From assembly GCA_014859225.1 (NCBI GenBank), contig JACUUP010000102.1, positions 1 through 5,198 of the forward strand: a stretch of DNA of 5,198 nt, read 5' to 3'. Origin of the DNA: Candidatus Aerophobota bacterium. GTDB lineage: Bacteria; Aerophobota; Aerophobia; Aerophobales; B3-G15. The translations under genes were made by a program, and so were the position numbers. The notes below the pieces were generated by a model, which saw only the letters and a program-made list of their open reading frames with translations, was not told where the DNA came from and did no database searches. Of this stretch, positions 2,669 through 5,045 are shown piece by piece (within the stretch, counting starts at the first letter, position 1; the number at the start of each line of letters is the position of its first letter).

Positions 2669-2931
2669 TTTTTCACCTTAAAAATAGCAATTATTCCTGA
2701 TACTGCTAAAAGTAAAACGATAGTCTCTCCCAGAGTGTCAAATGCTCTATAGCTAAGATATATGGAAGATACAAGGTTTATTGCCCCTGTTTCTTGCACT
2801 CCCCGGGAATAAAAATGCTCTTTTAAGTTTGTGCGGGGAATTAAGCTAAAATCCATACCTTTGATTAAAACCAGTCCTAAAATTATAAAAATTAATATCT
2901 CAAAGAAAAGCTTTACTATTTTGAATCTCAT
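2665..2931 (-). CDS. mbhE: MbhE-like antiporter subunit (equivalent to the C-terminal end of MrpA / start of MrpB)
   Basis: The 88-aa protein has an N-terminal hydrophobic helix (about residues 8-25), a polar middle, the conserved stretch ETGAINLVSSIYLSYRAFDTLGE (about 45-67), and a C-terminal helix. The ETGA...N.V...I...YRAFDTLGE pattern identifies the MbhE family (PF20501-type), which is fused into MrpA or MrpB in classical Mrp systems but separate in Mbh-type clusters. I chose the ATG at 2931, although the frame is open further upstream. This ATG overlaps the mbhD stop as ATGA and follows several SD-like GGAGG repeats, one 7 bases away. The longer reading would overlap mbhD by more than 130 bases and give an implausible Cys/Gly-rich N-terminus. 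Confidence 0.88.
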   Translation of the reverse strand: MRFKIVKLFFEILIFIILGLVLIKGMDFSLIPRTNLKEHFYSRGVQETGAINLVSSIYLSYRAFDTLGETIVLLLAVSGIIAIFKVKK

Positions 2932-3173
2932 TCCTCTTCCTCCACCTCCTCTTTTCTTCGGGTTTTGTTTATGGTCAACACAAAAATTACTGTAGCAACA
3001 CCTGCGCCCACCGCCGCCTCCGCAATTGCAACATCGGGTGCATGTAAATAGTAAAAAAGCAGTGAGCAAAGCAGGCTAAATATTGCAAGGCAGATAACCG
3101 CATTTAAAAGGTCTTTAAATTCCAACGATAAAATTCCCAGGATTATGAGCAAAATAAGAATGGTCTCAGTCAT
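2928..3173 (-). CDS. mbhD: MbhD-like antiporter subunit (DUF4040 / MrpA C-terminal domain)
   Basis: The 81-aa protein has three hydrophobic helices (about residues 3-17, 24-43 and 50-67) and the conserved block HAPDVAIAEAAVGAGVATV (about 44-62). This is the hallmark of the MbhD/DUF4040 family (PF13244-type), homologous to late helices of MrpA and NuoJ. It forms part of the ion path of Mrp/Mbh complexes. It ends in a basic then strongly acidic tail (KTRRKEEVEEEE), whose Glu codons also supply the SD repeats for mbhE. The ATG at 3173 is the only reasonable start: an in-frame stop lies two codons upstream. The bases in front of it contain no SD, unlike most genes here. It is the first antiporter gene in the window; the MrpE, F and G-type genes that normally precede it are absent. 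Confidence 0.88.
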   Translation of the reverse strand: MTETILILLIILGILSLEFKDLLNAVICLAIFSLLCSLLFYYLHAPDVAIAEAAVGAGVATVIFVLTINKTRRKEEVEEEE

Positions 3174-3289: not shown

Positions 3290-3538
3290 TCAAATGTTGT
3301 ATTCTGTCCTATGTTCATAAAGACATTCTTTCACAAATTTTGTGATTTGGTCAAATTCTTCTTTAGTGACATCCCGCCAATTTTCCTCAGTGATTGGCTC
3401 AATCTCCCAACCAAAACCATAATTGTTATTTTGTGCAGCCCAATAATATATTTTATCTTTATATTCAACTTTCCCACCAGCCAGCCAATCGTCAAATTGG
3501 TCACGGTGATATTGGGAATCAACAATTATTTTAATCAC
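3290..3538 (-). CDS. Hypothetical 82-aa acidic protein of unknown function
   Basis: I do not recognise this family. The product is small, soluble and acidic, rich in aromatics, with several Trp and Tyr (for example IYYWAAQNNNYGFGWEIEP at about residues 30-48) and a C-terminal segment that looks helical (VTKEEFDQITKFVKECLYEH). There is no signal peptide or membrane segment. It begins with GTG at 3538, preceded by a strong SD (AAGGGGGT, about 7 bases upstream); a stop a few codons upstream rules out a longer form. It follows a relic of the nuclease gene's 3' end, so it probably belonged to the restriction locus. Any role as an accessory or immunity protein is only a guess. Confidence 0.65.
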   Translation of the reverse strand: MIKIIVDSQYHRDQFDDWLAGGKVEYKDKIYYWAAQNNNYGFGWEIEPITEENWRDVTKEEFDQITKFVKECLYEHRTEYNI

Positions 3539-3669: not shown

Positions 3670-3975
3670 CTACAATTCTTGGTGTTTCAACCAAGCAGAT
3701 ACAGTGTCTTCTTTTTGTTCCTTCCTAAGGTTTAACGCTTTCTTTTTGATCTTATTAAGCGTAACAACATCAACTTTGTTCATATCTACCCATAATTCAT
3801 CTTCCTTACTTCCTTGCCCGAATTGCTCACCAGATACTACAAAAATTTCTCCATTGTTTAGAATAAATTCAAGTGCGCCCCAACCTGTAAGATCTTCTTT
3901 AGAATTTCTTTCTCTGACGAATAATATTCCTATTTTATTTGCTCTCTCAATAAAATGTTTTTTTGTTGTATCCAC
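3670..3975 (-). CDS. Hypothetical 101-aa protein coupled to the restriction nuclease gene
   Basis: I do not recognise this family. The product appears soluble: an N-terminal helix-like, basic segment (KKHFIERANKIGILFVRER), a likely beta-rich middle (WGALEFILNNGEIFVVSGEQ, about residues 32-51), and a Lys-rich helical C-terminus. The start is GTG at 3975, only 2 bases after the nuclease stop, with a perfect GGAGG 6 bases upstream that lies inside the last nuclease codons. An ATG two bases upstream is in another frame that closes after 15 codons. The arrangement implies coupled expression with the nuclease, so an accessory or regulatory role in the restriction locus is possible but unproven. Confidence 0.7.
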   Translation of the reverse strand: MDTTKKHFIERANKIGILFVRERNSKEDLTGWGALEFILNNGEIFVVSGEQFGQGSKEDELWVDMNKVDVVTLNKIKKKALNLRKEQKEDTVSAWLKHQEL

Positions 3976-3977
3976 AT

Positions 3978-4748
3978 TTATCCTCCTTTTCCAATGATTC
4001 CAAATTGTTCCCGCCTCTCGTTATGTACTAAGGCAGAGTTATATAATTCTTCTAACTCCTTATAAAGTCTAAAGATAAATCTATCTCTAAACTCCCTAAA
4101 CGGCGTCTGGCTGACATATTGATTGAATAAATCTTTTTCCTTTGCGCTTGGTCCAATTATAAAAAATTGAGCAGGAAATCTTCTTGGTATTTTTAACAAT
4201 CTATCCAAACCAGATTTTACTCTTGTTGTTTCCTCTACTTCAAAAGCGTAAACTGGAAAAAGTCCGTAGTCATCTTCATCAAACCACAATGTATCTACCT
4301 CTCTAATTTTTGCTAAGTTAGGACCCTTAAAGATGCTAGTGCAATTTGAGACAGTCACAAAATCTCTTAACGGTTTATCTTGGAAAGTTCTGATAGTTTG
4401 GTCATGTGGGGGTGCGTAAGTTTCATATCCGTAAATTTTACCGAGTGTAACTAACATTCCTTGAGCGATTCCGTGATCAACCTCTGGTTCTTTAGTAAAA
4501 CCTTGCGACTCAGGCTTTAGTGAAATTTCTTCCACAACTTTATAAATACCACTTTTCTCGGGTAACACTGGCTCAAAAATCTTATATTGCCTTACAACTC
4601 GCCTAATAGTATCCTGCCAAGTCGGATTAGTCTTAGTTTTGGGATGACCTTTTACGATTTTATTAATCTCAGATAAATGACCTTGCCCACCTAATTCTAA
4701 TAAAGCATTCCTGACAACATCTTTCCAAGTTAATTTCTCCTCTTTCAT
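3978..4748 (-). CDS. HARE-HTH domain protein with PD-(D/E)XK-like nuclease region, probable type II restriction endonuclease
   Basis: The 256-aa soluble protein starts with a HARE-HTH winged-helix domain at about residues 5-72 (LTWKDVVRNALLEL, then HLSEINKIV and a late GIYKV strand). This DNA-binding module is common at the front of restriction enzymes. The rest resembles a PD-(D/E)XK fold: a helix DHGIAQGMLVTLGKIYG (91-107), VDTLWFDE (Asp152), and YAFEVEETTRVKSGLDRLL with Glu170 and Glu172. The core would be Asp152...Glu170-Val-Glu172, with Glu in place of the usual final Lys. I infer nuclease function from this pattern and from the methyltransferase remnant directly upstream. The ATG at 4748 overlaps the remnant's stop (ATGA) and has an SD-like GAGGGTG. 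The frame looks intact, which is odd for a restriction enzyme without a working partner methylase in view. It could be inactive, or protected by a methylase elsewhere. Confidence 0.78.
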   Translation of the reverse strand: MKEEKLTWKDVVRNALLELGGQGHLSEINKIVKGHPKTKTNPTWQDTIRRVVRQYKIFEPVLPEKSGIYKVVEEISLKPESQGFTKEPEVDHGIAQGMLVTLGKIYGYETYAPPHDQTIRTFQDKPLRDFVTVSNCTSIFKGPNLAKIREVDTLWFDEDDYGLFPVYAFEVEETTRVKSGLDRLLKIPRRFPAQFFIIGPSAKEKDLFNQYVSQTPFREFRDRFIFRLYKELEELYNSALVHNERREQFGIIGKGG

Positions 4749-5045
4749 GATAAATCACCCTCTTTGGAATCTGTATAATGAATAATATTTGCATAGGGAG
4801 GATGAGCACAGATTAAATCTATTGAGTTATCTTTCAAAGATGATAAATCTCTTGCGTCACCAATTAGAAATCTTTAAAGAACTAATATTTAGTCCCTGTG
4901 ATTGAGTGATAAGTTTCTCGATATATCTAAATGTAACTCCATATTTTTGACCAATTTCTAAATCCGGAGTCCCTTTTACTTTTTCTTTTAAAATTGCTTC
5001 TTGAAGTTCTCTTTCATTTTTAAAATTTATTTTGCGATTGTTCAT
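4745..5045 (-). pseudogene. DNA methyltransferase (N4/N6-type), gutted remnant
   Basis: Two pieces of one methyltransferase lie in different frames. The first (ATG at 5045 to about 4872) carries the N-terminal part, including KGTPDLEIGQKYGVTFRYIE, a helix-turn-helix-like segment I associate with a family of RM methylases. The second (about 4871-4745) reads IGDARDLSSLKDNSIDLI, then HPPYANIIHYTDSKEGDLS, with catalytic motif IV (PPY) at 4801-4793, and stops at once. Missing are the SAM-binding motif (F-x-G-x-G type) expected between the pieces, and the whole C-terminal part after GDLS. The second frame is closed by a stop at 4876-4874, and the first ends at 4857. This fits an internal deletion plus a 3' deletion that joined the remnant directly to the nuclease gene. 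It cannot encode a working methylase. Confidence 0.82.
4857..5045 (-). CDS. Residual 62-aa reading frame from the methyltransferase N-terminus, HTH-like
   Basis: This is the part of the methyltransferase remnant that can still be translated from an ATG. Residues about 26-46 (TPDLEIGQKYGVTFRYIEKLI) look like a helix-turn-helix, preceded by a charged helix. The last four residues (ISNW) lie past the deletion point and are out of frame with the original protein. The SD is weak (AAGG, about 11 bases upstream). It may be made as a short peptide because the upstream promoter looks sound, but whether it has any function is unknown; it is most likely debris. Confidence 0.4.
   Translation of the reverse strand: MNNRKINFKNERELQEAILKEKVKGTPDLEIGQKYGVTFRYIEKLITQSQGLNISSLKISNW

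Follow-up and report, generated by a model that had tools for sequence, protein, structure and literature searches.

A predicted winged-helix nuclease recurs across bacteria and archaea without a complete adjacent methyltransferase gene

The window analyzed here is the whole of contig JACUUP010000102.1, 5,198 nt from a Candidatus Aerophobota bacterium (GCA_014859225.1), and represents contig C235 of the draft genome G000. The following features lie on its minus strand.

4857..5045, minus strand: N-terminal part of a methyltransferase (MTase) relic; a 62-aa ORF, open, whose codons 1-60 correspond to MTase residues 1-60 (the HTH-like region) and resemble the N-termini of near-full copies.
4745..4865, minus strand: motif IV part of the MTase relic, in a second frame, reading FLIGDARDL...HPPYANIIHYTDSKEGDLS* and corresponding to MTase residues 182-220 (HPPY..EGDLS).
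3978..4748, minus strand: 256-aa predicted nuclease, winged helix plus PD-(D/E)xK endonuclease; uninterrupted ORF.
4524..4748, minus strand: nuclease residues 1-75, a predicted forkhead/linker-histone-like winged helix, related to the HARE-HTH of distant homologs.
3984..4514, minus strand: nuclease residues 79-255, predicted PD-(D/E)xK fold, with D152 at 4295-4293, E170 at 4241-4239 and E172 at 4235-4233.
3670..3975, minus strand: orf101, a small ORF starting 2 nt past the end of the nuclease gene and a recurrent neighbor in 5 close loci.
3290..3538, minus strand: orf82, a small ORF that recurs as a neighbor in 10 close and 3 distant loci.
2928..3173, minus strand: DUF4040-type Mrp subunit (named by eye), found directly after mnhG in relatives.

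Translation of the minus strand yielded the 62-aa ORF at 5045-4857 and, in the second frame, FLIGDARDLSSLKDNSIDLICAHPPYANIIHYTDSKEGDLS*, whose TGA stop overlaps the nuclease start as ATGA. Both parts aligned by tblastn with a near-complete MTase paralog encoded elsewhere in this genome, the first with residues 1-60 (68% identity, E 2e-22) and the second with residues 182-220 (90% identity, E 4e-17), values that place the match far above chance. In a DNA search, query positions 362 and 370, 8 apart, corresponded to positions 386 and 755 of the paralog's contig, C123. The net loss inside the relic, relative to this paralog, is ~361 bp; because this is not a multiple of three, the reading frame changes. 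Motif I (DYFCGAGTT) falls within the deleted segment, and everything after GDLS, the C-terminal half, is gone. The motif IV scrap has accumulated zero amino-acid changes over 26 codons relative to the nuclease-linked MTase of locus L009. Since the scrap is unchanged at the protein level, loss of the MTase in the window appears recent, and the comparison suggests that selection acted on the gene in this lineage until recent times. The window thus carries what was lately an HTH-containing amino-methyltransferase gene, now a relic joined to the nuclease at its start codon.

The near-complete paralog lies at the start of contig C123, and its frame stays open past motifs I and IV and into the C-terminal strand, up to residue 310, where the contig ends; it is 84% identical to the nuclease-linked MTase of locus L018. 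On C123 the MTase lies beside two genes, of 356 and 423 aa, beyond which come mnhG-F-E (Mrp genes named by eye). In the relatives G001, G002 and G006, mnhE-F-G runs directly into a DUF4040-type gene and B-C-D, which places the insertion site just upstream of the DUF4040-type gene; in G000 the two halves of one Mrp operon are split between C123 and C235. We infer a single insertion between mnhG and the DUF4040 gene in G000, so arranged that the near-complete MTase probably stood just upstream of the relic, in the same interrupted operon, across the gap between the two contigs. The C123 MTase is a candidate that could protect the G000 genome from the nuclease. Its two neighbors (L004:1019-3344), the 356-aa gene being PD-ExK-like by eye (RPDLIL..CVLECK), possibly form a separate system; neither had a Pfam match above the cut-off, and a homolog of the 356-aa gene was not found among 192 other genomes searched.

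The nuclease was unnamed by Pfam, NCBIfam and PADLOC; phmmer found no relative of it in the PDB, and Foldseek alone gave no match to its model below 1e-3. Its AlphaFold model, built with 36 homologs as input, had a mean pLDDT of 92. In this model, residues 1-75 matched forkhead and linker-histone winged helices (Z up to 10.1) and the winged helix of DpnI (Z 7.8), a likeness that is one of fold only, and residues 79-255 matched the BspD6I small subunit (Z 8.5) and EcoT38I (Z 7.6). D152 and E170 were invariant, and E172 nearly so, among homologs down to 21-27% identity. The protein is therefore predicted with high confidence to be a winged helix joined to a PD-(D/E)xK domain with its D...ExE/K residues, the modeled fusion being the architecture of Type IV winged-helix nucleases; we infer that it acts as a nuclease. 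The Pfam HARE-HTH model did not match the window protein, which had a weak Forkhead match, and did match distant homologs, above the cut-off in L114 (1.1e-7) and below it in L101 (6e-4) and L119 (2.6e-3).

Close relatives of the nuclease were found at 27 loci including the window, of which 26 could be assessed; L031 is cut at its 5' end and was excluded. These loci span Cloacimonadota, KSB1, Chloroflexota, Actinomycetota, WOR-3, Ratteibacteria, Atribacterota, Planctomycetota, Methanophagales and others. A complete MTase in cis, such as a cognate Type II restriction-modification pair would have, was present in 0/26 loci with readable upstream DNA: the gene was near-full in 3, a remnant in 12 and absent in 11, with only about 150 bases of upstream DNA visible in L013 and L030. 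Eleven of the remnants, the window's among them, derive from this MTase and one is a zinc-finger remnant; the calls in L023, L024 and L025 were made by eye. The near-full copies (L009, L016 and L018) end at FWYAN or FWYDS, their last ~20 residues absent, whereas stand-alone relatives (the C123 MTase, viral contig L116 and Fusobacterium L120) run on to ...SIKYNFLLLAHEYLFVF or its counterpart, the C123 copy breaking off inside this end with its contig. No nuclease-linked MTase is therefore complete. Judging by general knowledge and by comparison of the sequences, we claim that lack of the C-terminal strand would inactivate the three near-full enzymes; the structure model of the MTase itself was of low confidence (pLDDT 41). 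Two junction types recur, GDLS/ATG in 5 loci and FWY..TAAA/ATG in 5 loci. We considered whether a GDLS junction shared by descent would prove that the MTase was lost long ago, and dropped the argument as unsafe, given an unresolved tree and the unchanged motif IV scrap. The tight coupling of the two genes wherever both are present suggests that they were originally a functional pair.

These comparisons bore out the anatomy that an earlier note had read from the window: an HTH-like N-terminus and an HPPY motif IV block in two frames, lacking the SAM-binding motif and everything after GDLS, beside an uninterrupted nuclease frame (4748-3978). Full-length relatives that ended at GDLS would have spoken against a truncation, and the stand-alone relatives continue past it. 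The comparison of related genomes that the note proposed uncovered different truncations of the same MTase at the same place, and its search for a second methylase led to the paralog on C123.

Several other peculiarities were encountered at these loci. Fragments of unrelated MTase classes lie, by eye, upstream of the nuclease at L026:5433-5678 and L023:95-379 (D12-like, and N6/N4-like ending DMIFSARI*). The Hakubella MTase (L018:5043-5999, genome G069) contains an insert, in frame and about 20 aa long (ITHAAHRTTSHENCVIFKG); pieces resembling it match many other places in that genome, and the insert resembles a mobile palindromic element landing in genes. Loci L011 and L012 (JACWAE010000091.1) are identical nuclease-locus copies in opposite orientation on one contig, which may be either a large inverted repeat or an artefact of the assembly. 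The genome of L013 carries a second, slightly different truncated HTH ORF (L041, G064:C97:6510-6734, ending KERDLS*). L009:1620, L018:5005, L041:1464 and L019:858 share a leader, GTTAGGCRAAACRGCRG..TTA, immediately before the start of the HTH; it occurs across phyla and is absent from the window.

The nuclease frame was open in 25/26 close loci, the exception being the MTase-free, frameshifted L028; the L018 protein has a divergent C-terminus. Pairwise dN/dS was about 0.08, alike in copies with and without an MTase. In two Methanophagales loci, L021 and L089, the nuclease sits beside the same GNAT gene without an MTase, and here its dN/dS was 0.14 at a dS of 0.45. This purifying selection is the best evidence that the nuclease is maintained without an MTase in cis, assuming that the MTase was already gone in the common ancestor; the GNAT gene beside it has diverged further (dS 1.77), and a later exchange is therefore possible.

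An MTase in trans was sought in 25 genomes with the L018 protein as query. A close full-length MTase outside the nuclease locus was found only in G000; the other genomes with a truncated or absent cis MTase yielded none, in a search of draft assemblies, where a trans MTase may be missed, and of close relatives of this enzyme as distinct from classes such as 5mC. Among distant nuclease relatives, 15/16 inspected had no MTase neighbor in the fetched flanks, so that occurrence without a protecting MTase extends from the 11 close loci lacking any to most of the distant ones. One distant relative has an adjacent MTase, and in L108 and L109 an amino-MTase and the nuclease domain are fused in one protein. 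Small ORFs are more constant companions of the nuclease than the MTase: same-strand ORFs follow it in most close loci (orf82 in 10, orf101 in 5, orf107 in 3 and a HicB-like ORF, by eye, in 5), and a HicB-like ORF, also by eye, overlaps its start in distant L111, L114 and L115. Carriage by phages was considered and is unsupported, no close nuclease having been found in viral and phage collections.

Solitary restriction endonucleases accompanied by MTase pseudogenes were described by Ershova et al. in 2012, who listed an MTase in trans, silence and absence of sites as alternatives for such enzymes (PMC3488263). As in their cases, an intact endonuclease gene here stands beside a corrupted MTase gene, and complete orthologous MTases exist elsewhere; complete restriction-modification orthologs exist for their enzymes, whereas here the nuclease-linked MTase is complete in 0/26 loci across many phyla. 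Solitary restriction enzymes are thus already known; the pattern of a never-complete linked MTase is new. The winged-helix nuclease fusions of Helbrecht et al. (2024) are 6mA-dependent and mostly stand-alone, with frameshifted neighboring amino-MTases in some (PMC11037411). Our nuclease resembles these DpnI-type Type IV enzymes in joining a winged helix to a nuclease, in usually standing alone and in the inactivated amino-MTases adjacent to some copies. In those fusions, however, the PD-(D/E)xK domain precedes the winged helix, which is N-terminal here, and any methylation dependence of our protein would be conjectural. Proteins that combine HARE-HTH with a restriction endonuclease (PMC10853773) likewise fuse a HARE/forkhead-like N-terminal domain to a restriction-type nuclease, but the window protein, unlike some of its distant homologs, does not match the HARE-HTH model. 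The BspD6I small subunit and EcoT38I (PDB 2p14, 7edb) share the catalytic fold, yet differ in domain make-up and are 10-12% identical over the aligned part.

The earlier note held that losing the methylase while keeping the nuclease should be lethal, a premise that assumes a Type II pair. It is not supported by the family at large: in all the close loci that could be assessed the nuclease lacks a complete MTase, while its frames are open in all but one and it is under purifying selection. Since the same nuclease occurs in more than 20 unrelated microbes without a complete adjacent MTase, it is probably tolerated without one. Taken together, the recurrent MTase-free state, the selection and the winged-helix architecture are better explained by an MTase-independent nuclease than by a Type II pair. 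We therefore give roughly an even chance to a mobile nuclease that does not need the MTase, is possibly modification-dependent (Type IV-like) and has lost its linked MTase again and again. Such an enzyme would most likely work without a cognate protecting MTase; its winged helix may recognize modified DNA, as in Type IV enzymes, or the nuclease may be restrained by other means, for example by a small protein whose gene is tightly linked. In that case the MTase would be dispensable, and its gene has been deleted repeatedly in different hosts. Against MTase independence stand the coupling of the two genes, the recent selection on the MTase, the two fusions and one adjacent MTase among distant relatives, and the paralog in G000.

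That paralog is the core of a possible but doubtful alternative, an ordinary Type II remnant in which the C123 MTase protects the genome and the redundant linked copy has decayed. The paralog's identity to a nuclease-linked MTase, its open frame through motifs I and IV, its probable position just upstream of the relic and the recent look of the motif IV scrap all favor it, and of the ways out that the note had offered, another protecting methylase thereby gains a candidate. This escape does not extend to the other genomes with a lost cis MTase, drafts in which no such paralog was found and the nuclease nonetheless persists; moreover, the C123 MTase may belong with its 356- and 423-aa neighbors, and the gap between C123 and C235 is unread. 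It is unlikely that the nuclease is silent or inactive and simply not yet decayed, the loci being restriction-modification systems that are dying out and were all caught at one stage. Such a course has a precedent in PaeR7I, whose endonuclease is inactive once its MTase is lost (PMC3488263), and would agree with the recent loss in the window and the frameshifted L028, but it sits poorly with the 25/26 open frames, the purifying selection between L021 and L089 at their shared site and the recurrence of the MTase-free state in distant relatives. A mobile, MTase-free unit restrained by orf82, orf101 or the HicB-like protein in the manner of a toxin-antitoxin pair, having repeatedly captured and discarded MTase genes, strikes us as quite improbable.

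The short HTH relic might instead be kept as a regulator, the pair having become an HTH-nuclease unit. The N-terminal HTH stays open in truncated copies whose deletions end at different points, and it looks conserved there, with a pooled dN/dS of 0.14 as against 0.147 in full copies and a third-position share of 0.56 in both. Because the MTase loss in the window is recent, however, the low dN/dS may predate truncation; L023, L024 and L025 have a broken HTH or none, L010 has one with several radical changes, and a search for a shared, conserved operator palindrome found none. We do not claim a retained HTH function, and regard a regulatory relic as very unlikely. That the MTase was broken only by an error of assembly or sequencing is scarcely credible: this is a draft metagenome assembly, in which a close paralog can cause chimeras, but the relic and C123 differ by 12-24% in DNA, and the same gene is truncated differently at the same place in other genomes.

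The loci point to an uncharacterized family of winged-helix nucleases and form a natural series across bacteria and archaea, in which the same nuclease occurs with a near-full, a partly deleted or an absent MTase. This series would permit a direct test of how a restriction-type nuclease persists after its methylase is lost.
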